A stretch of 33,426 nucleotides of DNA from Gammaproteobacteria bacterium (GTDB lineage Bacteria; Pseudomonadota; Gammaproteobacteria; JABXHR01): contig JABXHR010000135.1 of the NCBI GenBank assembly GCA_013373515.1, forward strand, positions 1-33,426, written 5' to 3'. Of the stretch, positions 2,027 to 22,197 are shown piece by piece. The translations under genes were made by a program, and so were the position numbers. Numbering within the stretch: the stretch's first letter is position 1; each line of letters starts with the position of its first letter. The notes under the pieces were generated by a model, which ran no database searches, had not been told where the DNA came from, and saw nothing but the letters and a program-made list of their open reading frames with translations.

Positions 2027-2452
2027 ATGGAGCAATACATCGAGTTTGCATCGAATCACCCATTGATGGTGTTCGGTACAATTGGTCTTATCGCGTTTTT
2101 GATCTACTACGAGAGCGATCAACTGTTGTCGGGTATCAAGGGGATGAATCCTCCCGATTTGACCCGCGCGTTGAATGACGGCGATGCTGTGTTGGTCGAT
2201 GTGCGCGACGGTAAAAGTTTCAAGGCGGGCCATATTTCGGGCGCCATTCATATTCCGTCTGCCGAAGTGGTCAAGCGGCTGTCAGAACTTAAGCGCCATG
2301 AAGGCAAGACGATCGCATTCTGCTGTAATGTGGGCATGACCGCTCGCTCGGCGGCCAAAGCGGCCAAAAAGGCCGGTTTGCAAAATGTCGCTGTCCTCAC
2401 CGGTGGTCTCGAGGCTTGGAATAAAGCCAATCTCCCAGTCGTATCTAGGTAA
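2027..2452 (+). CDS. yibN: rhodanese-like domain protein, YibN family
   Basis: A 141-residue protein with one N-terminal membrane segment (about residues 13-28) and a cytoplasmic rhodanese fold (about 40-140). VLVDVRDGKSFKAGHISGAIHIP is the typical rhodanese N-terminal signature. The active-site loop follows FCC, with the likely catalytic Cys at residue 100 and a six-residue loop CNVGMT. Rhodaneses carry sulfur as a persulfide; the substrate of YibN is not firmly known. The gene is first in a tight set with secB, 6 bases downstream, and gpsA, matching the yibN-grxC-secB-gpsA cluster of enterics but without grxC. Confidence 0.85.
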   Translation: MEQYIEFASNHPLMVFGTIGLIAFLIYYESDQLLSGIKGMNPPDLTRALNDGDAVLVDVRDGKSFKAGHISGAIHIPSAEVVKRLSELKRHEGKTIAFCCNVGMTARSAAKAAKKAGLQNVAVLTGGLEAWNKANLPVVSR

Positions 2453-2458
2453 TCAATC

Positions 2459-2953
2459 GTGTCAGAACAAACTCAAGCTCAGCAATTTCAAGTCGTCCGT
2501 GTGTACACCAAAGATGTCTCTTTCGAGTCGCCTAAAGCACCAAATATCTTTCTCGAGACTGATATCAAACCGCAGGTTTCGCTGCAATTAAACAACGGTG
2601 CGAACAAGCTGGCGGACAATATATTTGAAGTCACGCTCCAGTTGACAGTGACTGCCAAAAACGGTGAAGACAATCTTTATTTGGTTGAGATCACACAGGG
2701 CGGCGTATTCAGAATTGAAGGCTTCGATGACAACGCACGCAGCATGTTGCTGGGGGCATACTGTCCATCTACTCTTTTCCCGTTTGCTCGCCAGACCATT
2801 GCAGATATGGTAATGAACGGTGGCTTTCCACAACTGCTGCTCGAGCCAATCAACTTCGACGCGCTGTACCAGCAGCATCTGCGTGAAGCCGCCGCCAAGC
2901 AACAAGCGCAGCAAGCTGCACAGTCTGAACAAGGCGAAGGCGGCGTTCACTAA
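2459..2953 (+). CDS. secB: protein-export chaperone SecB
   Basis: A 164-residue cytosolic chaperone that keeps preproteins unfolded and hands them to SecA. The family signature is clear: FQVVRVYTKDVSFESPKAPNIF near the N terminus, then TLQLTVTAKNG, the GVFRIEGF region, YCPSTLFPFARQTI and NGGFPQLLLEPINFDALY. The tail is Ala/Gln-rich, as usual. The start is GTG at 2459 with AGGTAA at 2448-2453 as ribosome-binding site, overlapping the yibN stop. The stop is immediately followed by the gpsA ATG, so the two are probably translationally coupled. Confidence 0.97.
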   Translation: MSEQTQAQQFQVVRVYTKDVSFESPKAPNIFLETDIKPQVSLQLNNGANKLADNIFEVTLQLTVTAKNGEDNLYLVEITQGGVFRIEGFDDNARSMLLGAYCPSTLFPFARQTIADMVMNGGFPQLLLEPINFDALYQQHLREAAAKQQAQQAAQSEQGEGGVH

Positions 2954-3964
2954 ATGACTGCTCAAAGCGCCGCCGATTCAGTAGCCATCGCCGTCATCGG
3001 CACTGGTGCATTCGGCACGGCGCTGGCGGTACATTTGGTGAGTCTCGGTCATCGGGTTGCACTATGTGGTCGCAACGTTGCCCATATAGACAGCATCCGC
3101 CAAACCGGCGTTCACGATCGAGTGGTCGAAGGCTTCAAAGTCCCTAAGACCATCGATTTGTTTGTCGGTTTACCGCAATTGGATGAATTCGATGCGGTTT
3201 TGATTGCGACGTCGTGTAGTGGTTTTGAGTCGGCTCTCGAACAGATTCGTGCACAAGGCTTCTCTGGTGCTGTGGTTTGGGCCTGCAAGGGCTTTTCCCC
3301 GGGCACGGCTGATTTACTCTCCACCCGCGTCCCCGCTCATTTTGGCGAAGATCATCCCATGGCGGTGATCTCCGGGCCTAGCTTTGCTGCGGAGCTTGCC
3401 GTTGGTATGCCCACTGCATTATCTGTCGCTGGCAACTCGCTGGATATCTCAGAAAAAGTGAGCCAGTGGTTTCACGGCAATAATCTGCGTACCTATGTGC
3501 AGTTTGATATGACGGGCGTTCAAGTGGGCGGAGCCATCAAAAACGTCTATGCCATCGCGGCGGGCATTTCCGATGGACTTGGTTTTGGTGCCAATGCTCG
3601 CTCAGCGTTGATTACGCGAGGATTGGCCGAAATGACGCGACTCGGGGTTGAGATGGGCGCTGCACACAATACCTTCTTGGGCCTGTCTGGTTTGGGCGAT
3701 TTGACCTTAACGTGCACAGATAATCAGTCTCGAAACCGCCGCTATGGTCTGGCCGTGGCAGATGGGATGTCAGACGAGGCTGCGCTGGCCAAAGTGGGGC
3801 AGGCAGTGGAGGGGCGTATCACTGCGCGCACGGCCAAAGTGCTCGCGGATCGTTATGATGTTGAATGCCCAATCATTGAGCAGGTCTACCAAGTGGTCTA
3901 TCAAAACCTTGCCCCATCCGATGCGGTGGCGGCGCTGCTCTCGCGTTCGATTAAGAGCGAATAG
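2954..3964 (+). CDS. gpsA: glycerol-3-phosphate dehydrogenase [NAD(P)+]
   Basis: A 336-residue cytosolic enzyme that reduces dihydroxyacetone phosphate to sn-glycerol-3-phosphate for phospholipid synthesis. The Rossmann motif GTGAFGTALA is near the N terminus, followed by the conserved ISGPSFAAEL. The catalytic Lys is in GGAIKNVYAIAAG, and GLSGLGDLTLTC precedes NQSRNRRYG. Length and motifs are normal for the family. The ATG follows the secB stop with no gap, and the Shine-Dalgarno would be the GGCGAAGGCGG at the end of secB. Confidence 0.97.
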   Translation: MTAQSAADSVAIAVIGTGAFGTALAVHLVSLGHRVALCGRNVAHIDSIRQTGVHDRVVEGFKVPKTIDLFVGLPQLDEFDAVLIATSCSGFESALEQIRAQGFSGAVVWACKGFSPGTADLLSTRVPAHFGEDHPMAVISGPSFAAELAVGMPTALSVAGNSLDISEKVSQWFHGNNLRTYVQFDMTGVQVGGAIKNVYAIAAGISDGLGFGANARSALITRGLAEMTRLGVEMGAAHNTFLGLSGLGDLTLTCTDNQSRNRRYGLAVADGMSDEAALAKVGQAVEGRITARTAKVLADRYDVECPIIEQVYQVVYQNLAPSDAVAALLSRSIKSE

Positions 3965-4132: not shown

Positions 4133-5344
4133 ATGCTGTACCAAGGATATGAACTCGCAAATCGGGCCATGGAGCCGTTAAGAGCGGGTGCTCGCGTGTG
4201 GCAGACAGTGCTGCAAAGTGAACTCAATCCGATGCGCCAATCAGCATGGTCCAAAGCGAGTGCGGCGTCGATCTCGGTGATGGACCTGATGACGCGTGCT
4301 TATGAAAAGCCCGATTGGCAGATTATTCACCCAGAAAACCAATCAACGCTTACCCCGGATTGTGTGGTGCAAAAACCGTTTGCACACTTGCTGCGCTTTG
4401 ATGCCTATCCAGAGCAGCAAAAACCCCGTGTGCTTTTGGTGCCGCCATTGTCTGGGCACTATGCCACCTTGTTGCGTGGCACGGTCAAAGCATTGATCAA
4501 GGATTTTGAAGTCTATGTTTGCGATTGGCAGAATGCGCGCGATGTTCCCCTCTCGGCCGGCCGCTTTGATCTGAATGATTACATCGATTATCTGATCGAT
4601 TTTATGCGCAGTCTCGGTACATCGACGCATGTCATCGGTGTCTGTCAGCCCGGCCCCGCGGTGCTCAGTGCAGTTGCGCTATTAAGTGAAGCCAAAGATC
4701 CGGCAACACCAAAGTCGATGACAATTATCGGCTCGCCGATCGACCCGCGAGAATCGCCAACAGAGCCTAATCGCTTGGCCGAGAGTCGGCCTTATGCTTG
4801 GTTTGAGCAAAACTGTGTTCATCGGGTGCCTTGGCCGAATACCGGCGTTGGACGGCAGGTTTATCCGGGCTTTTTGCAGCTTGCAGGGTTTATGTCAATG
4901 AACCAATCGCGACACATCGATGCGCAAAGTCGCTATTTTGATGATTTGGTATCAGAGCAGCACGCAGCGGCGCGCAAGCACGAACATTTCTATGCAGAGT
5001 ATCTCTCGGTGCTCGATCTAAGTGCGGAGTTTTATCTGCAAACCATTCGCGATATCTTTCAAACGTACAAATTGCCCAACGGCACTTTTGAGCACCGTGG
5101 ACAAACGGTGGATTTGTCGGCCATCAAGCAAACCGCATTGATGACGATTGAAGGTGAGCTAGATGATATCTCAGGCGTTGGTCAGACTCAGGCTGCGCAC
5201 CGTCTATGTTCAAATATTCCGAAGGCCAAGCGAATGACCATGGTACAACCAGGAGCTGGGCATTACGGTGTGTTTAGTGGCGCCAAATTTAGGGAAGTCA
5301 TCTATCCGCAGGTGCGAGATTTTATTGTTGGCAATAATTCTTAA
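4133..5344 (+). CDS. phaZ: intracellular polyhydroxyalkanoate depolymerase
   Basis: A 403-residue alpha/beta-hydrolase of the PhaZ family, which degrades native PHA granules in the cytoplasm. The nucleophile is a Cys in VCQPGPAV (C171), as in intracellular PhaZ enzymes, instead of the Ser of a lipase box. Downstream, GELDDISGVGQT (around 341-352) holds the acid residue and GAGHYGVFSG holds His377, matching the depolymerase C-terminal domain. The PPLSGHYATLLRGTV stretch is also typical. The ATG at 4133 has GGAG at 4124-4127. It heads the PHA locus, has its own upstream region, and is followed by phaP. Confidence 0.92.
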   Translation: MLYQGYELANRAMEPLRAGARVWQTVLQSELNPMRQSAWSKASAASISVMDLMTRAYEKPDWQIIHPENQSTLTPDCVVQKPFAHLLRFDAYPEQQKPRVLLVPPLSGHYATLLRGTVKALIKDFEVYVCDWQNARDVPLSAGRFDLNDYIDYLIDFMRSLGTSTHVIGVCQPGPAVLSAVALLSEAKDPATPKSMTIIGSPIDPRESPTEPNRLAESRPYAWFEQNCVHRVPWPNTGVGRQVYPGFLQLAGFMSMNQSRHIDAQSRYFDDLVSEQHAAARKHEHFYAEYLSVLDLSAEFYLQTIRDIFQTYKLPNGTFEHRGQTVDLSAIKQTALMTIEGELDDISGVGQTQAAHRLCSNIPKAKRMTMVQPGAGHYGVFSGAKFREVIYPQVRDFIVGNNS

Positions 5345-5394
5345 TTAATTGAAATACAAATAAAAATAGGGATAAGAAATATTTTTTGGGCGAC

Positions 5395-5463
5395 GCACAA
5401 AAAATAAGTTGACGAGCGTGCAGGTAGCAACTATATTTAAGTCAAATGGTGCAGTGCACAAAT
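5395..5463 (+). promoter_or_regulatory. phaP promoter with flanking operator-like repeats
   Basis: TTGACG (5409-5414), 17 bases, then TATATT (5432-5437) is a near-consensus sigma-70 promoter with an expected start near 5444. GCACAAA occurs just upstream of the -35 (5395-5401). GTGCACAAAT occurs just after the expected start (5454-5463), where it begins the imperfect dyad GTGC...GCAC ending at 5471. The two GCACAAA copies are 61 bases apart, about six helical turns. The 5345-5408 stretch is AT-rich and could act as an UP element. Operator identity (PhaR) is inferred. Confidence 0.7.
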
Positions 5464-5502
5464 GTGAGCACCTCAAGACGGAATTGAATTAGGAGCTACA
5501 CC

Positions 5503-5877
5503 ATGCAAAACCCAATGATGAACGCATTCGTTAGTCTGACAAACGCATCTCTCAACTCAGCGAAAGAGTTGATTGCGCTTAACGGCAAGTTGATGACCTC
5601 TGCTTTAGAGCGTCAAATCGAAGCAGCCAACTGGATGGTTGCGGCGAGCGAAGCGCAACTTAACGCTGCAAAAGATGTGAAAGATCCAGCAGAATTTATG
5701 CAAAAGCAAACCCAAGTTTTAGAGGCATCAGCCAAAGAAATGACTGCAATGGCCGAGGCCAACACCAAGGCAATGGCCGATGCAGGTGAAGCCTACAAAG
5801 CTTGGATGCAAAGCAGTTCGACTGCCGTAGAAACGGTAGTCAAAGGCGCCGCAGAGGAAGCCAAACGCGCAGCATAA
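5503..5877 (+). CDS. phaP: phasin family protein (PHA granule-associated)
   Basis: A 124-residue, almost wholly helical amphipathic protein. The spacing of Leu/Ala heptads, the starting MQNPMMNAF and the C-terminal Ala/Lys-rich end match phasins, which coat PHA granules and control their number and size. There is no signal peptide and no Cys. AGGAG at 5491-5495 is a strong ribosome-binding site for the ATG at 5503. The gene sits between phaZ and phaC behind its own strong promoter, consistent with phasins being far more abundant than the synthase. The phasin assignment rests on both sequence character and context. Confidence 0.88.
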   Translation: MQNPMMNAFVSLTNASLNSAKELIALNGKLMTSALERQIEAANWMVAASEAQLNAAKDVKDPAEFMQKQTQVLEASAKEMTAMAEANTKAMADAGEAYKAWMQSSSTAVETVVKGAAEEAKRAA

Positions 5878-5887
5878 TGCTGTGCTA

Positions 5888-5905
5888 GGGGTGCAGCCGC
5901 ACCCC
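5888..5905 (+). terminator. hairpin between phaP and phaC (attenuator or processing site)
   Basis: GGGGTGC (5888-5894) pairs perfectly with GCACCCC (5899-5905) over a 4-base loop. It is not followed by a T run, so it is not a textbook intrinsic terminator. It may stabilise the phaP 3' end or partly terminate, lowering phaC relative to phaP. Confidence 0.5.
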
Positions 5906-5948
5906 ATCTTCGTCCTGCAGCCGATTGGAAAATCAAGTGAGTAGTAGG

Positions 5949-7772
5949 ATGAAGCAAAAATCCCCCGAGAAGGCGTCTTTAAACTCTAAAACGCCTCCCT
6001 CAAGGCGGAAGAAACAACCCGCCGCACGCAAGCCAAAACCGCAATCTGCGGTTGCCCCACGCTCCAATATTTCAAATCAAGCGGTTAACGTAGACATGGA
6101 GCAATCATCGCCTGCAAATCCGCTTGCCGGTATGGCCAAGCTGTCGCAAGACATGCTGTCGATGTTCTCTCAACCCGAGCGTTTAATTGCCACTCAGACG
6201 AAGTACGCCACCAATATGTTGTCGCTTTGGCAACGAGGATTTAGTGCCGCCACCACTGAGGAATCTGTCGAGCCGGTGGTGTCACCTTCGTCGTCGGATA
6301 AGCGCTGGAAGGACCCGCAGTGGCAGGCCAATCTTGGGTTTAGCTTGGTGCAGCAGGCGTATTTGCTGACGTCGGACTACATGCGCGAGCTCTGCCAGTC
6401 GATGCCGATCGAGGACGCGCATCAAGCTGACCAACTACGTTTCTACACCGAACAAGTGATTGCTGCCATGGCACCGACCAACTTCCCGCAGACCAATCCT
6501 GCGGTGTTGTCGAAAACGGTGGAATGCAATGGCGAGAATCTGATGGCGGGTTACCAAAACTTTATGCGGGATCTCGATCCAGATCAGGGTCAGCTCAAAA
6601 TTGCCATGACCGATAAATCCGCATTTACGATTGGGGAAAATATCGCCACCACCGATGGCGCGGTGGTGTTTCGCAATCGGATGATTGAACTGATTCAGTA
6701 TGCACCGAGTACCGGTAAAGTGCTTAAGCGACCACTGATGATTGTGCCGCCTTGGATCAATAAATTTTATATTTTGGATTTGCAGCCCAAGAACTCGATG
6801 ATCAAGTGGCTGGTTGAGCAAGGTCATACTGTATTTGTGCTGTCGTGGGTAAACCCAGATGCGAGCTACCGTGATGTTGGTTTTAACAACTACATGGAAG
6901 AGGGCATTTACGCGGCCACAGATTTTATCTGTCAGTCGCTCGAAGTTGAGCAGCTCAATGCCATTGGTTACTGCATTGGTGGAACGTTGCTCAGTGCAAC
7001 ATTGGCCCATATGAAGGCCATCGGTGACAAGCGAATCGTCAGTGCGACGTTCTTTACCTCGATGATCGATTTCGCTGAGCCAGGTGAATTGGGTTTGTTT
7101 GTCGATGAGCCGCAGCTGCAGCGTTTAGAGGCCGAGATGGCCGAGCATGGCATCCTCAAAGGGCAGGCGATGGCGAGCACATTTAATATGCTGCGTGCCA
7201 ACGATTTAATCTGGTCGTTCTATGTCAATAATTACTTGATGGGCAATCAGCCACCAATCTTTGATTTGCTCTATTGGAATTCGGATTCCACGCAAATTCC
7301 AGCAGCGACTCACAGCTTTTATTTGCGCAATATGTATCAGCGCAATTTACTGTGTCAGCCCGGTGCACTGCAGTTTAACGGTGTAGATATTGATATTTCC
7401 AAGGTAGATATTCCCGTGTATTTTTTGTCGGCGCAGGAAGATCACATTGCGCCCTGGAAGTCGACTTATGCCGGTGCGCAGTTATTCGCTGGAGATGTGA
7501 CGTTTGTGTTGGGTCAGTCCGGGCATATTGCTGGGGTGGTCAATCCGCCGTCGGCCGACAAATATGGGTATTACACGACAGATCAACTGGCGCCTGATGC
7601 AGATGGTTGGCTTGAATCGGCGAGCGAGCATAAGGGTTCGTGGTGGATGCATTGGCACGACTGGGTGCAAGGCCACAATAAAGTAAAAGTGAATGCTCGC
7701 ACGGTTGTTCCTGTCGATGATTCGCAAGCGTCACATGCACCGGGTAGTTACGTCAAAGTCAGGTATGATTGA
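5949..7772 (+). CDS. phaC: class I poly(3-hydroxyalkanoate) polymerase
   Basis: A protein of about 607 residues that polymerises (R)-3-hydroxyacyl-CoA at the surface of PHA granules. The lipase-like box GYCIGG holds the catalytic Cys (C342 from this start). The acid is in SAQEDHIAPW and the catalytic His in GQSGHIAGVVNPP. PPWINKFYILDLQP and FVLSWVNPD are also typical of class I PhaC. The first 40 or so residues are low-complexity and very basic (Lys/Arg/Pro/Ser). The start is uncertain: ATG at 5949 (GAG at 5939-5941), GTG at 5937 (GGA at 5927-5929) and TTG at 5925 are all in frame; I prefer the ATG. It is followed at 24 bases by phaR. Confidence 0.95.
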   Translation: MKQKSPEKASLNSKTPPSRRKKQPAARKPKPQSAVAPRSNISNQAVNVDMEQSSPANPLAGMAKLSQDMLSMFSQPERLIATQTKYATNMLSLWQRGFSAATTEESVEPVVSPSSSDKRWKDPQWQANLGFSLVQQAYLLTSDYMRELCQSMPIEDAHQADQLRFYTEQVIAAMAPTNFPQTNPAVLSKTVECNGENLMAGYQNFMRDLDPDQGQLKIAMTDKSAFTIGENIATTDGAVVFRNRMIELIQYAPSTGKVLKRPLMIVPPWINKFYILDLQPKNSMIKWLVEQGHTVFVLSWVNPDASYRDVGFNNYMEEGIYAATDFICQSLEVEQLNAIGYCIGGTLLSATLAHMKAIGDKRIVSATFFTSMIDFAEPGELGLFVDEPQLQRLEAEMAEHGILKGQAMASTFNMLRANDLIWSFYVNNYLMGNQPPIFDLLYWNSDSTQIPAATHSFYLRNMYQRNLLCQPGALQFNGVDIDISKVDIPVYFLSAQEDHIAPWKSTYAGAQLFAGDVTFVLGQSGHIAGVVNPPSADKYGYYTTDQLAPDADGWLESASEHKGSWWMHWHDWVQGHNKVKVNARTVVPVDDSQASHAPGSYVKVRYD

Positions 7773-7796
7773 GCCAGCAAAGGAAGATAAATCACG

Positions 7797-8249
7797 ATGA
7801 GAACCATTAAAAAATATCCAAACCGTTCCCTCTACGATACTGAGCGCAGCGGCTACGTGAGCTTGGCTGATCTGCGTCAATTGGTCATTGATTCGGTGGA
7901 GTTTGAAGTCATCGACACCAAGACCAAGCAAGATGTGACCCGCCAGGTTCTGTTGCAAATTATCGCTGAACAAGAGGGCGCGGAAGAGCCGCTGTTTAGT
8001 ACTGATGTACTGGCGAGTTTTATTCGAATGTACAGTGATGGCACTCGAAATACGTTTAGTGAATACCTCGCACAAAGCATGGCGTTTTATCAGGAGCAAT
8101 CTCAGCAGGTACTCAAGGGCATGGGGCGCCAGATGAGTGACCCAATGGCCGCATGGGCTGAGTTTACCAAGCAAAATTTAAATATTTGGAACGAGGCGCA
8201 GCGCCAGATGTATCGGGCGGCCGGGCTCGATCCAGACAAAAATAATTAA
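7797..8249 (+). CDS. phaR: polyhydroxyalkanoate synthesis regulator PhaR
   Basis: A 150-residue protein. The N-terminal PHB/PHA accumulation regulator DNA-binding domain is unmistakable: RTIKKYPNRSLYDTERSGYV, with DLRQLV and VIDTKTKQDVTRQVL (about residues 1-60). A PHB_acc domain follows (about 65-105, FIRMYSDGTRNTFSEYL), then a helical tail. In characterised bacteria PhaR represses phasin and its own gene, and is released when it binds nascent PHA granules. The ATG at 7797 has AAGGAAG 5' of it. The likely targets here are the shared GCACAAA sites before phaZ and phaP, which is an inference. Confidence 0.95.
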   Translation: MRTIKKYPNRSLYDTERSGYVSLADLRQLVIDSVEFEVIDTKTKQDVTRQVLLQIIAEQEGAEEPLFSTDVLASFIRMYSDGTRNTFSEYLAQSMAFYQEQSQQVLKGMGRQMSDPMAAWAEFTKQNLNIWNEAQRQMYRAAGLDPDKNN

Positions 8250-8276
8250 CAGTTGCAATAATCTAGGGAGAGTGCA

Positions 8277-9023
8277 ATGAAAAAAGTCGCGCTGGTGACC
8301 GGTGGAACTGGTGGTATTGGTACGGCCATTTGTAAGCAATTACACCACGATGGAATGACGGTAATTGCGGGGTATTACAACGGTGGTCAACACGAAAAAG
8401 CCCAAGGCTGGCTGGAGACTGTAAGAGCGGAAGGGTTCGAACATATGTATATCGCCTTTGGCAATGTCTCCGATTATGAATCAGCCAAGACCTGCATCGA
8501 TGGCATCGTCGAAGAACATGGGCCGATTTCGGTATTGGTTAATAACGCCGGTATTACACGTGATTCGATGTTTAAGCGCATGAGTGTCGAGCAGTGGCAG
8601 GACGTGATCAAGGCAAACCTCGATAGCTTGTTTAATATGTCGCGCTTGGTCATCAATGGCATGCTTGAAAACGGTTGGGGCCGAATGGTGAATATTTCAT
8701 CGATCAACGGTCAAAAGGGCCAGTTTGGTCAGACGAACTACTCTGCGGCCAAGGCCGGCATGCATGGGTTCACCAAAGCTTTGGCGCAAGAAGTTGCTTC
8801 CAAAGGAATTACCATCAATACAGTGTCGCCTGGCTATGTGGCGACCAGTATGGTGAAATCAGTGAAGCCGGAAATTCTTGAGGGCATTGTGGCCAATATT
8901 CCAGTAGGTCGTTTAGGCGAGCCGGAAGAGATCGCCCATGCGGTGTCATATTTGGTGTCTGAGCACGCGGGTTATATTACCGGTTCAAATTTGGCCATCA
9001 ATGGTGGTCAGCACATGTTCTGA
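8277..9023 (+). CDS. phaB: acetoacetyl-CoA reductase
   Basis: A 248-residue short-chain dehydrogenase that reduces acetoacetyl-CoA to (R)-3-hydroxybutyryl-CoA with NADPH, giving the monomer for PhaC. The cofactor motif TGGTGGIG is at residues 8-15 and NNAG at 89-92. The catalytic triad is Ser142 in NISSINGQKGQFG with Tyr155 and Lys159 in YSAAK. The run NGQKGQFGQTNYSAAKAG is characteristic of PhaB rather than FabG. GGGAGAG at 8266-8272 is the ribosome-binding site. It is the last gene of the PHA locus; no thiolase gene follows, and the stop is 4 bases from the convergent trmL stop. Confidence 0.95.
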   Translation: MKKVALVTGGTGGIGTAICKQLHHDGMTVIAGYYNGGQHEKAQGWLETVRAEGFEHMYIAFGNVSDYESAKTCIDGIVEEHGPISVLVNNAGITRDSMFKRMSVEQWQDVIKANLDSLFNMSRLVINGMLENGWGRMVNISSINGQKGQFGQTNYSAAKAGMHGFTKALAQEVASKGITINTVSPGYVATSMVKSVKPEILEGIVANIPVGRLGEPEEIAHAVSYLVSEHAGYITGSNLAINGGQHMF

Positions 9024-9027
9024 ACCC

Positions 9028-9507
9028 CTAGCTCAAATCGGCGCCGACAAACCCGAGTTGGCGCCATCCTTCATAGACCGCAATCGATACGGCATTCGCC
9101 AGATTTAAGCTTCGACCGCCTGCCACCATTGGCAACTTTACTTTGGTGCGCTCGACAAATCCCGCCAACACATCATCTGGCAGCCCCCGAGTCTCAGGGC
9201 CAAATAACAACACATCGCCATGCTGAAATTTAACTTGATCGTGGCGCGTTTTGCCTTTGGTGGTAAAGGCGTACCAATTGGCGTGGAGCTCTTCACGCAC
9301 TGAATCGAGATTGGGGTGGATGTGTACACTGGCCCACATCGAGTAATCGAGGCCCGCCCGGCGCAACGACTTTTCATCCATATTAAAGCCCAGTGGCTCT
9401 ACCAAATGCAGTGCACAGCCTGTATTGGCGCTGAGGCGTATGAGGTTGCCAGTATTGGGGGGAATTTCCGGTTCGAATAGGACGATATGTAGCGGCGGTG
9501 AACTCAT
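9028..9507 (-). CDS. trmL: tRNA (cytidine(34)-2'-O)-methyltransferase
   Basis: A 159-residue SPOUT-class methyltransferase that 2'-O-methylates the wobble base of tRNA-Leu isoacceptors. Motifs are HIVLFEPEIPPNTGNLIRL at the N terminus, LLFGPETRGLP in the middle, and PMVAGGRSLNLANAVSIAVYE at the C terminus, which forms the trefoil knot that binds SAM. The start is the ATG at 9507 with GAGG 5' of it. An upstream in-frame ATG at 9636 would add 43 unrelated residues running into the opposite secretin gene region and is rejected. Confidence 0.93.
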   Translation of the reverse strand: MSSPPLHIVLFEPEIPPNTGNLIRLSANTGCALHLVEPLGFNMDEKSLRRAGLDYSMWASVHIHPNLDSVREELHANWYAFTTKGKTRHDQVKFQHGDVLLFGPETRGLPDDVLAGFVERTKVKLPMVAGGRSLNLANAVSIAVYEGWRQLGFVGADLS

Positions 9508-9614: not shown

Positions 9615-11066
9615 ATGTATCGCATGATTTGCACAATTGGTTTGATCAGCCTGATGGCATGTTCAACGCTACCACCAGAGAACATGACACCCAATGCCGT
9701 TCGACCACCAGCGCATTGGCTGGAGTCTTCAGCGAATACACCAGTGGCACCGACGCCCAAACCTAAGTTGCGCGATAAGCACATTTCGCTCACCGCCCAG
9801 AAAATCTCCCTGAATCAGCTATTTGCCAAACTTGGGCAAATGACGGGTATCGATATTGAGCAATCTGTTGACCTGCCGCAGTTGGTCTCGGTGGCCTATC
9901 GCGAGCAGGCGCTCGATACAGTGATTGATCTTTTGGCGATGCAGCATGATTTCGTTAGCGTTTGGGATGGAGATCGACTGTTGCTGTTGCCTGCGGGCGA
10001 CTATAGCGAGATCTATCGCTTGCCGCTGATGCCTACCATTCGTGACTTTTCGGCGCGGCTTGGCACACGGAGCAGTGAAATTAGTGAGCTTGAGAACGCT
10101 GAAATCGGCGGATCGGATAGCGTCATTACCACGGAAGCCAAGGCAGACCCTTGGCAGGAAATATTAGCGGGTATCCAGCAGCTTGCGCCGGGTAAGCCTG
10201 TCAATCTGCAACCACATAACTCCATGGTGTTGGTCAATGCCAGCAAACGTGAGCATCGAGAAATTGAGCGCTATTTATCGCAACTCACCGAGCGCTCGGC
10301 GCAGCAGGTGTTGATCGATGCTGCGGTGGTTGAAATTAGGCTGGAATCGTCCGAGCGAAGTGGGATTGATTGGCAGTCTTTGACCGAGGGAGCGGGACTG
10401 ACTTTGGTGCAAAACCTGACTGGCTTTAATCCACTTGAGACGTCGCCCAATTCGGCCGCCATCTACCGACAAACCCATTCGGGTAGTGTACTGACTCTGG
10501 CTTTGCAGAGCTTACAAAATCAAGGGCAAGTGCGTGTGTTATCCAATCCAAGGCTGCGTGTGCTCAACAATCAATCCGCGTTAATGAAGGTGGTCGATGA
10601 ACATGTGTTTTTCACTCAGGAAATAGAAGAAACCTTTGACGACGAGGGGCAAGTTGCACGGCGAAGGTTACAAACCGATATCGGACGAATCCCGGTTGGA
10701 CTGACCCTGCAGGTCCTGGCCACCATTGCGGAGGGCGGAAGGATTAGCTTGCAGCTGCGTCCAACCTTGTCGCGAGTCAAAGGTGTCCGCGAACTGCCCT
10801 TATTCGAAGATCAACGGCCCTTGGTCAATGAGGTGCCAGAGCTTCAGGTGCGTGAGCTAGAAACCGTCGTCTCGGTGCAGAGCGGTGAGACCATCGTGCT
10901 CGGCGGCATGATGGCGGATGATCTATCAACACGTAGAAAAGGGTTGTCTGGCTTGCCGCTGCAACGGGGCATCGGTAAATGGTTGGGGGCATCAGATCAA
11001 GCGCGCCAACAGACTGAATTGGTGATTTTTCTTAAACCTAGGGTAATTGGTCATGTCGCCCGCTGA
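9615..11066 (+). CDS. outer-membrane secretin lipoprotein, MshL/PilQ/GspD family
   Basis: A 483-residue protein with a lipoprotein signal (lipobox LMAC, Cys at about residue 16). It continues with an STN-type N domain (about 50-115: LNQLFAKLGQMTGIDIE, then VAYREQALDTVIDLLAM), a ring domain (NSMVLVNASKREHREIERYL), and a secretin domain to the end. VPELQVRELETVVSVQSGETIVLGGMM is the MshL/PilQ signature. It should form the outer-membrane channel of a pilus or secretion machine. I chose the ATG at 9615 because AAGGAGG (9604-9610) is ideally placed and the signal starts there. It is the first gene of a nine-gene operon and is closer to MshL in style than to the PilQ also encoded here, as it lacks AMIN domains. 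Confidence 0.88.
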   Translation: MYRMICTIGLISLMACSTLPPENMTPNAVRPPAHWLESSANTPVAPTPKPKLRDKHISLTAQKISLNQLFAKLGQMTGIDIEQSVDLPQLVSVAYREQALDTVIDLLAMQHDFVSVWDGDRLLLLPAGDYSEIYRLPLMPTIRDFSARLGTRSSEISELENAEIGGSDSVITTEAKADPWQEILAGIQQLAPGKPVNLQPHNSMVLVNASKREHREIERYLSQLTERSAQQVLIDAAVVEIRLESSERSGIDWQSLTEGAGLTLVQNLTGFNPLETSPNSAAIYRQTHSGSVLTLALQSLQNQGQVRVLSNPRLRVLNNQSALMKVVDEHVFFTQEIEETFDDEGQVARRRLQTDIGRIPVGLTLQVLATIAEGGRISLQLRPTLSRVKGVRELPLFEDQRPLVNEVPELQVRELETVVSVQSGETIVLGGMMADDLSTRRKGLSGLPLQRGIGKWLGASDQARQQTELVIFLKPRVIGHVAR

Positions 11067-11283
11067 GATGGAAGTATATTTGCGCCGCCACCGCCAACGA
11101 AGCGCTTTGGCGAGTGTGGCGTTGATTGTGGTGGCCTCTGTCGTTTGGTTCTCACTGCTTTATGGCGTCAGTACCTTCTGGCTTTGGGAGGCGAGAGCAC
11201 AACACCAGCAAGCGCTGATCGAATACCAAGATGCTGCCGCGCGCTTGCGTCGCTGGAGCGCGGAGGAAGGGCGAAATGATTGA
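11053..11283 (+). CDS. small bitopic membrane protein of the pilus-like operon
   Basis: A 76-residue protein of no recognised family. A short basic cytoplasmic N terminus (YLRRHRQR) is followed by one membrane segment (about residues 19-42) and a charged, Ala/Gln-rich, probably coiled-coil periplasmic tail. The ATG at 11053 lies inside the secretin gene (14-base overlap), and its end overlaps the ATPase start by 8 bases. The position between secretin and motor suggests an assembly or alignment role, possibly like a very reduced GspC/PilP-type connector. That is inference, as no sequence motif supports it. Confidence 0.65.
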   Translation: MSPAEMEVYLRRHRQRSALASVALIVVASVVWFSLLYGVSTFWLWEARAQHQQALIEYQDAAARLRRWSAEEGRND

Positions 11284-12517
11284 AACCTCTTCATTTGATT
11301 GGGCCTTGATCGCGGCGCAAAGCAACGCGTCGCATCGTCGGTATCTACTCCGCGTCAATCAAACGCACGATCGTTGTCGGGTGCTGTACGACAAGGCATC
11401 GATCTCACAGGTACGCCATCACTTGGCCAATGAATCTCTCGGTGAGATCGAGCTTATCGAAGCCAGTGCACGTGAATTTGCAGAAGTGCAGGCTCGACTC
11501 GGATTAGGCGTTCCCGCTGAGGCACTTCAGGCCGAGGCGCTGCTTGAGCATGCTGTCGCCATCGGTGCTAGTGATATCCATTTGGATTTTCAAGTGAATG
11601 GGCTAGATGTGCACTATCGAATCGACGGCGTGCTGAGTTCGGTTGCAACATTTTCGGTGGACGTGGGCCATCGGCTAATAGAGCAAATCAAGGTTCAAAG
11701 CCGGATTGATATCGCCAAAGTCGGAGTGCCCCAAGACGGAAAGTTGCGGTTGCAGCTATGGGGTAGCTATGTTGAGTTTCGGGTGTCGACTTTACCAGCC
11801 GCTTTGGGTGAAAGTGCCGTCATTCGGGTGCTCGACTCGGCCAAAGTTGAGCCTGTGCTAGGGCATCTATTCCATGGTGGTGTGGTGACACAGTTTGAGC
11901 GTTGTCTGCAAATGACCGATGGTCTGATCGTCGTCGCTGGCCCAACCGGCGCAGGAAAGTCCACCACCCTTCACGCCATGTTATCTGAGCTCAATAACGG
12001 TGAGCGCTGCTTGATCAGTATCGAAGATCCGATCGAGCGAGTGGTGGCCGGGGTGCGCCAGACCGAAGTGACAATCGACTCGCAGCCACTTTGGCTGCGT
12101 AGTGCACTGCGCCAAGATCCAGATGTGATTGTGGTGGGCGAAATTCGAGATCAAACCACAGCAGAACTGGCGCTGCGCGCCTCGCGCAGCGGACATTTGG
12201 TGTTGTGCACGCTGCATGTGGGCCATTACCCACAAATATTTGGGCGATTCGCGGAGTGGGGTATTTCGCGATCGATTTTAGAAGACGTGCTGCGAGCGGT
12301 GATTGTGCAGCGGCTGTTGCGGCGCAATTGTGAGTCTTGCCTTGGTGAGGGGTGCCCGCGATGCAGACAAACAGGATACTTTGGTCGAGTGGGCATTGCT
12401 GAGCTAGATGGTGGCCGTGATGACAATGGCTCGCTACGAGATCACGCAATGAACTTGGTGGCACTCGGTTTGACGCGTGAGTCAGAGGTGCAAAGGGTGT
12501 TGGGTCATGCTGCGTGA
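11276..12517 (+). CDS. type II secretion / type IV pilus assembly ATPase, GspE/PilB/MshE family
   Basis: A 413-residue hexameric motor ATPase that drives (pseudo)pilin assembly. The N-terminal N1-like domain is short (about residues 1-75). Then come ASDIHLDF (98-105), the Walker A GPTGAGKST (222-230), the Asp box SIEDPIE, the Walker B DPDVIVVGEIRD (281-292) and the His box GHLVLCTLH. The zinc-binding cysteines are C352, C355, C360 and C363, with only four residues between the two CxxC pairs, far fewer than usual in GspE/PilB. The start ATG at 11276 follows AGGAAGGG (11265-11272); an earlier in-frame ATG at 11231 is rejected. PilB-type is favoured over PilT-type because the tetracysteine is present. 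Confidence 0.92.
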   Translation: MIETSSFDWALIAAQSNASHRRYLLRVNQTHDRCRVLYDKASISQVRHHLANESLGEIELIEASAREFAEVQARLGLGVPAEALQAEALLEHAVAIGASDIHLDFQVNGLDVHYRIDGVLSSVATFSVDVGHRLIEQIKVQSRIDIAKVGVPQDGKLRLQLWGSYVEFRVSTLPAALGESAVIRVLDSAKVEPVLGHLFHGGVVTQFERCLQMTDGLIVVAGPTGAGKSTTLHAMLSELNNGERCLISIEDPIERVVAGVRQTEVTIDSQPLWLRSALRQDPDVIVVGEIRDQTTAELALRASRSGHLVLCTLHVGHYPQIFGRFAEWGISRSILEDVLRAVIVQRLLRRNCESCLGEGCPRCRQTGYFGRVGIAELDGGRDDNGSLRDHAMNLVALGLTRESEVQRVLGHAA

Positions 12518-13514
12518 GCAGGCCATTTCAGCACCGCTGAGCGATCTATTAGATTTGGTGCGCAGCGGGGTCAATCTAGTGACAGCGCTAGACATGGTGA
12601 CCGCTGCACTGCCGCACCCTGAGGCGCGGCAAGTGTTTTATCAGTGTGCACTTAGCGCAAAAGAGGGCGGCAGCTGGACAGCGCCTCTGGCGACTGTATT
12701 GCCAAGCACAGATTATTACCTGCTGTCTGCATGCTGTGAGGCAGGGAAGCTGGAGCAAGGGTTGGCGTTGTTGGTCGAGCAAATGGCCTTTCGCCAGCAA
12801 TTGAGGCATGAATTGCGTGCGGGTTTGCGTTATCCCCTGACATTGATTTCCCTCAGCATCGTTGCTGCATTGTCGTTGTTGTTTAATCTAGTGCCTCCGC
12901 TGCTGAGTTTCGCCAACGATAGCGGTATTTCCCTAGGGAACACGGGCAGCGTTTTAATGTGGTTGTATGAACATCGATTTGCCCTGATAGCAGCAGTTGC
13001 TACTGTTGCTGCGCTCATCGCAATATTGGCACTTCCAGTCGTGCGAATGCGTGTGCTTGCTCGGCTCAATCTGCCAATGCAACAAGTGGGTTGGAATTAT
13101 CAGTGGCTATTTTTGATGTCGCAACTGGTGGCCGCCGGCATACCTCTGCAGCAGGCTATTTCACAGTCATCCTCGGCAAAGTCGACCTCTCATCGTCAAG
13201 CGGTTGCGCTACGTCAGCTAAACGACCGTTTGCTGGCGGGTTGGGGCGTAGATGCGGCATTTGGGCAGTGCGCATTTTTGTCGGTTCGCCAGCGGCAGTT
13301 GATTCGAATTGCGCAAAGTACAGGGCGCTTGGATGTTGCCTTCGCGCAGTGTGCACACTTGTCGTTTTTAGCGCTAGAGCGCGCAAAGGGACAGCTGATT
13401 TCTGCGGCGCGAGGCATTGGCCTTGGCTTGGGCGGTGGCATGGTGTTTTTGATTGTCGGTGGCTTGATACTGCCGATCTATGATGCAGTGTTCTCACAGG
13501 TGGGGCAGCAATGA
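12507..13514 (+). CDS. inner-membrane platform protein, GspF/PilC/MshG family
   Basis: A 335-residue polytopic protein with two GspF-type helical-bundle domains (about residues 8-125 and 200-325). Membrane segments are at about 107-127, 152-172 and 307-329. The motif CCEAGKLEQGLALL and its counterpart IAQSTGRLDVAFAQCA in the second domain are the repeated signature of this family. It is the membrane platform on which the ATPase acts. The ATG at 12507 overlaps the ATPase gene by 11 bases and has AAAGGGTG upstream. It is shorter than PilC/GspF (about 400) because the N-terminal cytoplasmic extension is missing. Confidence 0.88.
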   Translation: MLREQAISAPLSDLLDLVRSGVNLVTALDMVTAALPHPEARQVFYQCALSAKEGGSWTAPLATVLPSTDYYLLSACCEAGKLEQGLALLVEQMAFRQQLRHELRAGLRYPLTLISLSIVAALSLLFNLVPPLLSFANDSGISLGNTGSVLMWLYEHRFALIAAVATVAALIAILALPVVRMRVLARLNLPMQQVGWNYQWLFLMSQLVAAGIPLQQAISQSSSAKSTSHRQAVALRQLNDRLLAGWGVDAAFGQCAFLSVRQRQLIRIAQSTGRLDVAFAQCAHLSFLALERAKGQLISAARGIGLGLGGGMVFLIVGGLILPIYDAVFSQVGQQ

Positions 13515-14338
13515 CAGCGATGCTGCTGAACTGCGACAGTGGTAGTTATTTGCTGACGCCGGGTATTTGGGGTGGAGCGAGCTGGCAGCTGTTGTCAAGC
13601 AAGCCCTCAGATGCCCAATTGCCGCTGGGTGTTGAGAAGCTGATGTTGCCCACAGTCATGCAATTTCCCATTGGCTCTGAACGAGTTTGGCAAAATTTGC
13701 CGGCCGATCATTGCTTGCTTTTGGCGGAGGGCTACAACGGCCTGAGTGTGCATTGGGAGGGCGAACATTGGCTACTGGAGGTGACGGATGTGTCTTTTGA
13801 GGCGCTCAATGCGCTGCTGGAGCGAATGCAGTTGCCAAGGATGCGCAAACTGCCTCAAAAGATCTCGCTGGGTCCGTGGCTCTTGGGCCAAAAGCCGTCG
13901 GTTGTGAGGGCCAATTTTGTATTGATGGGGCTGCTTGTTGCAGTGGTTGGTTTCCCGCTGTTGGTTGAGGACTTGAAAATGCCTACGGCATCTACCAGCG
14001 ATCAAACTGTAGCGCAGTTGGTTGAGGCGACACCCTCGGCGCTCAGAACCTTGGCTTGGGACGATTGGAGTTTGCTCGCGTCGTGGGTGCGCGAGCAGCC
14101 AAAAATGCAGCTCAACAGCATAACGTATCGCGCCCAAGGTGGAGGGTATGCGTGGACGATATCTGCGCTTTGGCAGACATCAGAACAGACGTGGCAAGAG
14201 TGGGTAGCAGCTGTGCCCTCAGGTCTGCGCCTCAGCGTGGAAAAGTCTCCGTTTGAATCACAGACGGGTGCATCGCTGCGGAGTTTTGGCGCTGTGGTGG
14301 CAAATCCCGAAATGAGGGTGGTTTTGTGGCGAGAGTAG
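13511..14338 (+). CDS. bitopic assembly protein, GspL/MshI-like layout
   Basis: A 275-residue protein that I do not recognise by motif. It has a cytoplasmic domain (about residues 1-130), one membrane segment (about 136-153, VLMGLLVAVVGFPLLV) and a periplasmic domain of about 120 residues ending in RSFGAVVANPEMRVVLWRE. This is the layout of GspL or of a PilM-PilN fusion, but the cytoplasmic part is about half the size of GspL's actin-like domain and shows no clear ATP-binding motif. It overlaps the GspF-like gene by ATGA and the next gene by 13 bases. Function is inferred from layout and position (E-F-L-M order as in type II secretion). Confidence 0.6.
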   Translation: MTAMLLNCDSGSYLLTPGIWGGASWQLLSSKPSDAQLPLGVEKLMLPTVMQFPIGSERVWQNLPADHCLLLAEGYNGLSVHWEGEHWLLEVTDVSFEALNALLERMQLPRMRKLPQKISLGPWLLGQKPSVVRANFVLMGLLVAVVGFPLLVEDLKMPTASTSDQTVAQLVEATPSALRTLAWDDWSLLASWVREQPKMQLNSITYRAQGGGYAWTISALWQTSEQTWQEWVAAVPSGLRLSVEKSPFESQTGASLRSFGAVVANPEMRVVLWRE

Positions 14339-14751
14339 CGCTATTGCTAGTTGTTCTGGTGGGCCTTGTACTTCAACTGCTAAACCAAAAAGCAACAATA
14401 GAAACGGCGACTGACTCGCTGCGCTCCCAACAGGAACGCATGGTTCATCGGCGATTTCAATTGGATGGTTTGCTGGCTGACGGTTGGTTTATTCAGCCGG
14501 TCATAAACTCAAGTTTGTGGGAAGAACACGAAATAAAACCGCTGAGTAAACCTGCCGCTATGGGACGTTTTTCGCTCTATCGACGCACCCATCACGTCAC
14601 GATTAGCGGCCAATACGCAGGGCAAACCCTAAGCGCATTGGTCGGTCCGCTTTATGATGTTCATGTCGAGCTGAAGGCGCTAGATTTGGTATTTGAAGAT
14701 GGTCGGTTACAACAGCGTGCGACCTTCGATAGTGTATGGATTTCAGAGTAA
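14326..14751 (+). CDS. bitopic assembly protein, GspM/PilO/MshJ-like
   Basis: A 141-residue protein with an N-terminal membrane segment (about residues 3-20), then a short coiled coil (SQQERMVHRRFQLDGL) and a small alpha/beta domain containing HHVTISGQYAGQTLSALVGPL. That stretch matches the ferredoxin-like fold style of PilO/GspM. Start is GTG at 14326, inside the preceding gene. Together with the preceding protein it could form the L-M (or N-O) heterodimer linking the cytoplasmic motor to the periplasm. Homology is suggested by topology, size and order, not by a diagnostic motif. Confidence 0.6.
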   Translation: MARVALLLVVLVGLVLQLLNQKATIETATDSLRSQQERMVHRRFQLDGLLADGWFIQPVINSSLWEEHEIKPLSKPAAMGRFSLYRRTHHVTISGQYAGQTLSALVGPLYDVHVELKALDLVFEDGRLQQRATFDSVWISE

Positions 14752-14984
14752 TGGACAAACTGCTTTTACTCGATTTGCTGGCCTCGGTGCAGTTTGTGGT
14801 GGTTGTGTCGGATGAGCAAGCGTTGAGTCCTGAGACGGGTTTAATGGAGGAGATTGTGGAGGCGGCTTATCACGCAAATGCTCGGCCTGAGGGCTCACTC
14901 TTGATTGAGTTTGAAGGGTCGCAGTTTCGTTATGAAACGAGTGACTTTGAAGCTTCGAAATTGAAGATTGAGGTTGAAAAGTGA
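14751..14984 (+). CDS. hypothetical small protein of the pilus-like operon
   Basis: A 77-residue acidic protein of no recognised family. The N terminus is hydrophobic (LLLLDLLASVQFVVVV). The rest is charged (SLLIEFEGSQFRYETSDF) and looks like a small beta-rich domain. The ATG at 14751 overlaps the previous stop (TAATG) and the gene ends in a TGATG or GTGATG junction with the next. It belongs to the operon by tight coupling. Whether it is secreted, membrane-bound or cytoplasmic is open. Confidence 0.55.
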   Translation: MDKLLLLDLLASVQFVVVVSDEQALSPETGLMEEIVEAAYHANARPEGSLLIEFEGSQFRYETSDFEASKLKIEVEK

Positions 14985-15514
14985 TGAGCTGTTTTTGGCT
15001 TTGGTGCGTGTTTACAGTAGGGCATCAGCCTATGGCTTTAGATCGAGAGCTTGCGGCGCTTGCTATGCACTATTCAATTGATCACAACAGTGCGCACAAT
15101 GCAGGCTTGGGACATTTGCCCTGCATGTCGGCGCGTCCCTATGGTGATCGGCAGAACCCCTGTGTGATGCCAAATGGAGTCCATGCGTTGGTTGAGGGGT
15201 TTTGGGTCGATCCCTACATGGTGGGCAGTAAACGCGTCTTTCTTGCAGGGCAACCCGTTAGTATCACGCTGCCAAATCGATTGCTAAACGATATTTCCCC
15301 AAGTCAACCCTCGCACCTCAACAGCTGGAGCGACTGCGTAGCATCGGATGGGAAGATCAACATTGGATTGGCCAATGGACGGCGCTGGACTGTTCGCGAA
15401 CAGCGTTGGTCAGTTGTCATGCGAGCTGGGTTTGATCGGTTGTATTCGTCAATGCCGGCGAAGCCTTGGATGGAGGCGAACCAATGGCTCGATTGCCCCG
15501 TGGTTTCACCCTAA
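14984..15514 (+). CDS. hypothetical secreted protein, pilin-like without a prepilin leader
   Basis: A 176-residue protein beginning with a short hydrophobic segment (MSCFWLWCVFTVG) that may be a poor signal peptide. No FTLIE-type prepilin leader is present. The segment DRELAALAMH ... LGHLPC followed by a Cys 13 residues later resembles ERELLGFLAMHGRLPC and a Cys 12 residues later in the prepilin encoded next. Further Cys (SWSDC, QWLDC) could form disulfides, fitting a DsbB neighbour. Start may be GTG 14981 or ATG 14984; both overlap the previous gene. It overlaps the prepilin gene by 31 bases. Function is unknown; a minor-pilin or tip-like role is an inference. Confidence 0.6.
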   Translation: MSCFWLWCVFTVGHQPMALDRELAALAMHYSIDHNSAHNAGLGHLPCMSARPYGDRQNPCVMPNGVHALVEGFWVDPYMVGSKRVFLAGQPVSITLPNRLLNDISPSQPSHLNSWSDCVASDGKINIGLANGRRWTVREQRWSVVMRAGFDRLYSSMPAKPWMEANQWLDCPVVSP

Positions 15515-16131
15515 TAGAACTCTTGATTGCGCTCACCGTGCTTGGGATTTTGGCTAAATTTAGCCTGCCTCTCTGGACAGCAGTCTCGACGCAAATTCGT
15601 TATGCAAGAACGGATCATGCCTTAAATCAGATCGAGCGTGAATTACTCGGTTTTTTAGCAATGCATGGGCGACTACCTTGTCCTGCGACAGCGGGGAGTG
15701 ATGGTGCTGAAGATTGCAGTGTGGGCGCCGGCTTTGTACCGGCCAAGACCCTTGGTTTGGGGTTGGCACTCAATAAAGATTTACTGGTTAAAGACGGGTG
15801 GAATAATCCGATTGAGTATCAAGTGGGACGTCAATCGGATGGACAGCCATTGTTCGAGTCGGCAGAGCATTTGAAGCAGATGCATCCGAGTCTTTGGGCG
15901 TCCAGTTTGGCAGCCTATTATGGCTTGCCCTGCCGGCCGGTAACGATGTACGCCAACCAGCTCGCTGCGGTGGTGTTGGCGCGTAATAAGACGTTAGAGA
16001 GTGACTTGGGGGGCTGGTTCGGTCCGCGCGTGGAGACGGGCCCTTGCCGTCAAGACAACGATGCTCGCTTGATTAGCGAGCATCGAGTGTTGCTTGAGAT
16101 GATTTACTCGGGTGCGCTGTCGTCGCTCTGA
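15484..16131 (+). CDS. type IV prepilin-like / pseudopilin protein
   Basis: A 215-residue protein with a class III leader: MARLPRG then FTLIELLIALTVLGILAKF, with cleavage after Gly7 and Glu at +5 of the mature form. The hydrophobic helix ends at about residue 32. The globular part has LPCP and a second Cys 12 residues on (C66, C78), then KDGWNNPIEYQVG, as in GspG/MSHA-type minor pilins. It would be processed by a prepilin peptidase encoded elsewhere. The ATG at 15484 follows GGAGGCGAACCA (GGAGG at 15472-15476). It is the last gene of the operon, and its last 28 bases overlap the convergent dsbB. It is the only prepilin seen here; a major pilin must come from elsewhere. Confidence 0.88.
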   Translation: MARLPRGFTLIELLIALTVLGILAKFSLPLWTAVSTQIRYARTDHALNQIERELLGFLAMHGRLPCPATAGSDGAEDCSVGAGFVPAKTLGLGLALNKDLLVKDGWNNPIEYQVGRQSDGQPLFESAEHLKQMHPSLWASSLAAYYGLPCRPVTMYANQLAAVVLARNKTLESDLGGWFGPRVETGPCRQDNDARLISEHRVLLEMIYSGALSSL

Positions 16132-21252: not shown

Positions 21253-22197
21253 CTATTGAGTGGGCGTTTTAGTTGACTCAACAGGTTGGTTGGGATCGAT
21301 CAGGTCCGAATAGTCGCTAAATGGTCTAATCCAGGGTCTAAATTCAGTCCATTCGCCTACCAGTGCCTCAAGAGCTTGCTCTGCATCGGTCATCGAGCCA
21401 AATGACCCTAGCAGCATGTAATGCACCCGTTGGTCTTTTACGGCTTTAGTGACCGCGATTTTGGGTAGTGCAGTGGACGGTGCATGGGCTACGAACTGAG
21501 CGAGAGTCTCGAGGCTTTTTGCTGCGACCACCTCAATCGTGAAATTCTCTTTGGGCTGCTCCGCGACCCAAGTTCGATCATAAAATACGTTTGAAGATTC
21601 GATATCTAATCCTGATGGTTCTTCGTCGCTCGCATCGGCTTGTATGTCCGTATCGGCCTCCGTTTCATCTGTGGCGGCGATTTCGGTTTCCTCGGGCATG
21701 GAGTCGGAGTCGGAGTCGGAGTCAGATTCTGCTTCGGTTGGGGGCTGTTCGTCAGCGACTTGGGGTTGCGCAACGGGTTTTGGCTCGACGATCAGTTCAA
21801 TGGTCTCGATGGTCGGTGTCTTTTCAGTGCTTTGTTCCACCAATGACTTGAGCGATGAGTCGTCGGCATCGAGGGTGAGTTGCTCTGTCGGTGCCGGTAA
21901 ATCAAGGGTGTTGGGCAATATGCCGGTATCCAGATTGATGACGGTGACATCTTCGGGGGTATTCACGACAACAGGTGGCGCTTCGACAATTACAATTTCG
22001 CCACTGTCGTTGAGCTCGGCAATGGCAGTAGGTTGGCCGCTGCCACTTAAGGGGTTGTCGATGGCAATGGTCTTGCCTCCTTGGCGCGGAACCGGATCGA
22101 GCCAAATGAGCGCAGCGATGCCTAAAATCACTACCGCAGCTGTGATTTTTAGTAGGAGCTTGAACGGGCTCTTTTTTTGGCGGTAATAAAATGACAT
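21253..22197 (-). CDS. SPOR-domain protein (DamX-like)
   Basis: A 314-residue protein with one N-terminal membrane segment (about residues 13-32), a long Glu/Asp/Thr/Pro-rich periplasmic linker and a C-terminal SPOR domain (about 222-300: NFTIEVVAAKS, HYMLLGSFGSMTDAEQAL). SPOR domains bind denuded septal peptidoglycan, so a role in cell division is likely. In enterics and pseudomonads an SPOR gene occupies the same place after aroB. The linker carries an SDSDSDSDS run encoded by a hexanucleotide repeat. Start is ATG 22197 with a weak AAGAGAA upstream, 32 bases after the aroB stop. Confidence 0.87.
   Translation of the reverse strand: MSFYYRQKKSPFKLLLKITAAVVILGIAALIWLDPVPRQGGKTIAIDNPLSGSGQPTAIAELNDSGEIVIVEAPPVVVNTPEDVTVINLDTGILPNTLDLPAPTEQLTLDADDSSLKSLVEQSTEKTPTIETIELIVEPKPVAQPQVADEQPPTEAESDSDSDSDSMPEETEIAATDETEADTDIQADASDEEPSGLDIESSNVFYDRTWVAEQPKENFTIEVVAAKSLETLAQFVAHAPSTALPKIAVTKAVKDQRVHYMLLGSFGSMTDAEQALEALVGEWTEFRPWIRPFSDYSDLIDPNQPVESTKTPTQ
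21701..21724. repeat. GAGTCG hexanucleotide repeat, four units
   Basis: Four tandem 6-base units on the plus strand (the last has A for G) encode the Ser-Asp run in the linker of the SPOR protein on the minus strand. Length changes here would stay in frame. Confidence 0.8.

Follow-up and report, generated by a model that had tools for sequence, protein, structure and literature searches.

The nine genes at positions 9615-16131 of the window (the whole stretch of DNA analysed, 33,426 nucleotides long, corresponding to contig C46 in G000, a 3.65-Mb draft genome placed in the Gammaproteobacteria by its gene content and neighbours) are best explained as a miniaturised representative of a type IV filament family of gammaproteobacteria whose nearest kin, judged by the secretin, is the MSHA pilus and whose operon is passed on next to trmL, a reading to which we assign a probability of roughly 80%. 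The set is not a wholly new type of machine; it belongs, in heavily reduced form, to an MSHA-like sister family that is common but largely unstudied.

The locus consists of nine uninterrupted ORFs on the plus strand between trmL and dsbB, each overlapping its predecessor, and their third-position G+C is that of the flanking genes. The original prediction listed a secretin, an ATPase, a platform protein, a GspL-like, a GspM-like and a small bitopic protein, two unknowns and a prepilin, and the ORFs and Pfam agree with this list: the secretin, T2SSE ATPase, T2SSF platform and prepilin are Pfam-supported, and no Pfam or NCBIfam family scores above cut-off for any of the five other proteins. It further stated that retraction ATPase, GspC and prepilin peptidase are missing, which is borne out within the nine-gene locus; the genome carries PilT, PilU and PilD elsewhere. 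The features are given below with their slots in Msh lettering and, where available, their lengths against the median of the family described in the next paragraph.

2027..3964 (+), rhodanese-secB-gpsA, the outer synteny block (rhodanese 2027, secB 2459, gpsA 2954)
9028..9507 (-), trmL (SpoU-type tRNA methylase), divergent neighbour; PF00588 5.9e-29
9615..11066 (+), L slot, MshL-like secretin lipoprotein, 483 aa (median 554), lipobox LMAC-S; PF00263 6e-29, TIGR02519 and tree
11053..11283 (+), N slot, bitopic protein, 76 aa (median ~525); by position and topology, with no sequence match
11276..12517 (+), E slot, assembly ATPase, 413 aa (median 568), motifs intact; PF00437 1.8e-78
12507..13514 (+), alternative start 12477, G slot, GspF/PilC platform, ~335-345 aa (335 vs median 401); PF00482 4.5e-20
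13511..14338 (+), I slot, GspL/PilN-like bitopic protein, 275 aa (median 532); by partial model matches and position
14326..14751 (+), J slot, GspM/PilO-like bitopic protein, 141 aa (median 211); by position, topology and a bridge via genome G001
14751..14984 (+), alternative start 14736, K slot, exported protein, 77-82 aa (77 vs median 166); by position and the K protein of G001
14984..15514 (+), alternative GTG start 14981, P slot, Cys-rich protein with an LPC motif, 176 aa (median 431); by position and the P protein of genome G059
15484..16131 (+), prepilin, 215 aa, GFTLIE class III signal, LPCPA motif; PF07963 1.1e-7
16059..16085, perfect 11-bp inverted repeat, terminator-like by consensus scan only, near the convergence with dsbB

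The inverted repeat falls within the 3' end of the prepilin gene and is a possible terminator common to the convergent dsbB.

A survey of other genomes, as the original prediction had proposed, recovered the same gene order in fuller form, M-L-N-E-G-I-J-K-P-pilin, in dozens of gammaproteobacteria. The block L-N-E-G-I-J-K is complete in 27 of the ~46 other loci retrieved, with further loci lacking one label or cut at contig ends, and it is usually flanked by an MshM-type AAA protein before L and by LPCP-type P and prepilin genes after K. The window presents nine slots, L-N-E-G-I-J-K-P-pilin, in family order and with matching topology. The earlier description, by which the set is more compact than both known types and has three unknowns, was thus misleading: the slots map one-to-one to a widespread MSHA-like operon in which the I, J, K and P proteins simply lack a Pfam or NCBIfam model.

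The surroundings of the operon are shared as well. In 17 related loci trmL lies upstream and divergent, the usual order being rhodanese-secB-gpsA-trmL-operon; the window has rhodanese-secB-gpsA, then a PHB gene set, trmL and the operon. Most other family members carry mshM between trmL and the secretin gene, a position from which it is gone both in the window, where trmL is directly upstream of the secretin, and in G001, a same-family genome used for comparison. Given this shared synteny with trmL, the window operon is a positional ortholog, and loss of mshM is the simplest reading. As a separate observation, the PHB metabolism set (4133-9023; depolymerase, phasin, PhaC, regulator and PhaB-like reductase) splits gpsA from trmL, which lie close together in other genomes.

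The trmL-linked family may extend further. Its I-family profile matches 39 of the 398 genomes sampled across the phylum, many of them outside the class; I-slot homologues outside the class often occur in 2-3 copies per genome (G388, G391, G410, G458 and others), some of them as fusions of ~930 aa, with a second kind fused into proteins of ~900-1000 aa. Searches of plasmids returned other GspE-type proteins only and no I-family match. Among the papers searched, our look for a second or MSHA-like family yielded nothing relevant and no name or description of the trmL-linked family, which is not proof of absence.

Family placement is carried by the secretin. Its best family is MshL (TIGR02519), at 197.6 bits against a curated cut-off of 250.2, and 80 of the 369 class genomes searched with the window secretin have a match at E < 1e-35; the common operon emerged from the gene neighbourhoods of these hits. 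In the secretin tree, the trmL-linked family including the window forms a clade (support 99/98) apart from canonical MSHA (100/100) and likewise from T2SS and T4aP, and within the trmL-linked clade the window pairs with G001 (97/92). Forcing the window and G001 together with canonical MSHA was rejected by the AU test (p 0.026), forcing the window alone was not (p 0.085), and a single clade of the window, G001 and G059 gave p 0.38; these three may be one reduced lineage or may have shrunk independently.

These placements bear on the simplest alternative, namely that the genes are simply a canonical MSHA pilus operon such as that of Vibrio cholerae, which we regard as highly improbable. The V. 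cholerae system (MSH, proposed T4eP) does resemble the window in its MshL-like secretin, MshE-type ATPase and MshG platform, so that an L, E, G core is common to both and MshL is the best secretin family, and likewise in its I/J/K-like inner-membrane proteins and single-locus organisation; neither locus holds a peptidase, as is general for MSH loci (PMC6668835). However, the window secretin scores under the MshL cut-off; mshM, mandatory in the published MSH model (PMC6668835), is absent; and I-J-K follow G, whereas the V. cholerae mshI-mshF operon begins with mshI (PMC4624765). Canonical MSHA moreover forms separate 100/100 clades of its own, and several genomes carry both systems; in G080 (L190, C1:87000-106000) the trmL-linked operon ends just before the canonical MSHA locus, the two standing in tandem a few kilobases apart. 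The family as a whole thus differs from V. cholerae MSHA in its ATPase and secretin clade, in the position of I-J-K and in its LPCP-type pilins, and the window member differs additionally in having no mshM, MshN TPR domain, MshEN domain or pilin cluster. With the trmL-linked family, by contrast, it shares gene order, synteny, secretin clade and an LPCP prepilin. The original prediction held that the set would be an ordinary MSHA operon if its ATPase and secretin fell inside the MSHA clade and its unknowns matched Msh or T2SS parts; the unknowns do correspond to slots of an MSHA-like operon, but in the trees both proteins fall in a separate clade, and the ATPase alone does not reject other placements.

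The ATPase itself retains intact Walker A, Asp box and Walker B motifs and a contracted tetracysteine motif, CESC-x4-CPRC. In its best tree the trmL-linked family including the window is recovered at 95/99, canonical MSHA at 100/100 and T2SS at 100/99, and the window lies outside the PilB clade. Yet the window's branch, at 4.0 changes per site, is far longer than the median of 0.3, and AU tests grouping it with MSHA (p 0.36), T2SS (p 0.13) or T4aP (p 0.41) rejected none of these; the ATPase tree does not place the window by itself, and it is the secretin that carries the family placement. A scan of genome contigs with the ATPase as query returned one distant GspE only, and a search of the 369 class genomes at E < 1e-70 found only the window among the matches listed, with at most four candidates scored per genome. 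The window ATPase gave no match to the MshEN domain (PF05157) at E up to 1, and MshEN, the c-di-GMP receptor domain of MshE (PMC5013675), is present in the ATPases of four fuller relatives (E 1e-10 to 1e-14). The G001 ATPase has no MshEN match despite a retained N-terminal extension, and that of G059 shows an MshEN trace only.

These two genomes bridge the window to the fuller family. In G001 the genes are split over two contigs: trmL, the secretin, a bitopic protein of 75 aa and the ATPase lie on the first, GspF, I, J and K on the second, and we infer that the two parts join into one operon. With the same order beside trmL, G001 also counters the idea that the small layout is an artefact of the window's contig. 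Against the family profiles, the G001 J and K proteins reached probabilities of 79% and 95%, and I only 31%. In G059, a 1.1-Mb genome (84% complete) from another order than the window, the operon lies on two contigs, one with the stretch from secretin to GspF and one with the P-pilin-pilin end, and the P protein matches the P family at 99.3% probability. The genome has a single such secretin, ATPase and GspF, one peptidase and a handful of prepilins. In the sequence available all of these can be ascribed to this operon, the only filament machine found.

The window I, J, K, P and N proteins show no significant direct sequence match to the family; gene order, topology and the bridging relatives are the basis on which I, J, K and P are identified. 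The N slot, by position and topology, is the membrane anchor alone of the MshN/TPR protein. The G-slot platform is N-terminally short (aligned to HofC over 65-392 of 401), and the I-slot protein, about half the family length, has a shortened cytoplasmic part. Its structure model, confident only around residues 180-250, matches the periplasmic domains of PulL (5hl8), EpsL and XcpY (best E 0.019, probability 1.00), with a partial match also to PilO. Fuller P proteins typically begin with a PilX/GspK-like Q(R)GAALL segment without Glu5; no class III or pilin N-terminus is present at the P slot in any of the three frames in the window or G059, a check that also rules out a frameshift hiding it in either genome. 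The AlphaFold model of the window P-slot protein has a pLDDT of 53 and no meaningful fold match. By its position and the G059 P protein, the P slot would be a tip pilin that lost its pilin N-terminus. The operon prepilin matches the prepilins of the trmL-linked family.

The window locus is thereby the most reduced family member found: mshM and MshEN are gone, as are most of the N protein, half of I and the pilin N-terminus at the P slot. We read the missing MshM, TPR-bearing N and MshEN as secondary losses because two other family loci (L045 and L145) already have a short N slot and G001 lacks both mshM and a matching MshEN. Such losses raise the alternative that the operon is a decaying remnant whose proteins are short and fast-evolving since the machine is being lost; the very long ATPase branch, the truncated slots, the lost mshM and the single prepilin would all fit. 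We nevertheless consider decay improbable: the nine ORFs are intact and overlapping, their third-position G+C is normal, and the ATPase retains its Walker A, Asp box and Walker B; G001 keeps a layout of similarly small size; and in G059 no other machine of this kind was found, the one present having its own peptidase and prepilins.

The miniaturised trmL-linked machine stands beside several others in the same genome. PF00437 identifies seven ATPases: GspE (beside gspD and gspF), PilB (beside pilC), PilT, PilU, a Tad-type protein, an orphan GspE-like protein and that of the window. Since T2SS, T4aP and Tad each have separate loci, the nine-gene set is an additional machine with ATPase, secretin and platform genes of its own, as the proposal of a separate pilus or secretion system had anticipated; the same proposal called it reduced, which stands relative to its own trmL-linked family, though not in the sense of a new machine type. 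The orphan GspE/PilB-like ATPase (589 aa, L051:11047-12816 on G000:C216) has no secretin or platform gene nearby, and with close relatives in G052 and G257 it forms its own clade.

The window also carries a pilMNOPQ-like T4aP cluster, with pilP confirmed by Pfam, and pilBCD and pilTU lie elsewhere in the genome. This T4aP system shares with the operon the secretin-ATPase-platform plan and PilN/PilO-like folds, but the operon has separate genes, falls in a separate clade in the best ATPase and secretin trees, and includes no PilM, PilP or PilT. The PilD gene lies beside pilBC, outside the locus; with no peptidase in the locus itself, a peptidase shared with the rest of the cell is plausible. 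With a permissive threshold of E <= 1, PF07963 matches 34 times across the genome, the operon's own match included, so that 'one prepilin' describes the locus and not the cell. Prepilin-like matches occur on contigs C22, C171, C187 and C40, several of them clustered and some in ORFs of ~720-790 aa.

A further reading, compatible with the family assignment, is that the machine is for T2SS-type secretion, in which a short pseudopilus pushes out a specific product and no surface pilus is made. T2SS resembles the window in its secretin, GspE, GspF, GspL-like and GspM-like parts and prepilin; the GspL/GspM-like cage, the single operon prepilin and the lack of a retraction ATPase in the locus would suit such a role, and the adjacent dsbB and the Cys-rich protein of the P slot would be compatible with export of a disulfide protein. 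We hold this reading doubtful, as the locus has no GspC, no H, I, J, K pseudopilin set and no GspO, its ATPase sits in another clade than the T2SS GspE (100/99) in the best tree, and the genome already has a T2SS. A surface pilus is the likelier product.

For such a pilus we infer the following course. PilD, encoded elsewhere, would mature the single operon prepilin, and a hexameric E-slot ATPase would act on the G-slot platform so that pilins are lifted from the membrane into the filament. Together with K, the I and J proteins, which resemble GspL and GspM, may form a periplasmic cage aligning this base with the self-anchored L-slot secretin lipoprotein, through which the filament or its tip would pass. 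In fuller relatives the P slot holds a minor pilin of the tip; in the window its product may serve as a soluble cap or tip factor. Because the window ATPase is without the MshEN receptor domain, assembly is predicted to proceed free of direct c-di-GMP gating. In V. cholerae, deletions of mshI, mshM and mshN leave MshA pili unreduced, while deletions of mshL and mshE reduce them (PMC4624765); the pattern of parts lost and kept in the window fits these requirements, and losing MshM and the MshN TPR domain would remove parts dispensable for V. cholerae piliation. PilT might, at a guess, act on the window filament, as it reportedly does on MSHA in V. cholerae (PMC9815625).

It is possible, and we offer it tentatively, that the trmL-linked family constitutes another type of bacterial type IV filament alongside MSHA, as yet unnamed, with the loci of the window, G001 and G059 as its minimal form; in the window this would be a nine-gene machine without c-di-GMP gating, running on a single pilin supplied by the operon, its former tip pilin having become a soluble protein that is exported. 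All known type IV filaments contain minor pilins, a single-pilin filament being one that 'cannot be excluded', and MSHA was left out of the comparison table of the same review as too poorly characterised (PMC10191384). The family is widespread, occupies a single locus, often coexists with canonical MSHA and is made mostly of parts without a Pfam or NCBIfam model. Through natural deletions, its reduced members reveal what a filament machine can do without: MshM, the protein with TPRs, the domain for c-di-GMP and the membrane helix of the tip pilin. The question of a minimal filament machine thereby becomes testable, best in the small-genome G059 lineage, where only such a machine was found.

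Elsewhere in the window, a minus-strand ORF at 21253-22197 occupies the place where damX normally lies, between gltB and aroB; it has a match to the MshM profile (E 6.6e-24) but to no Pfam family at 1e-4.
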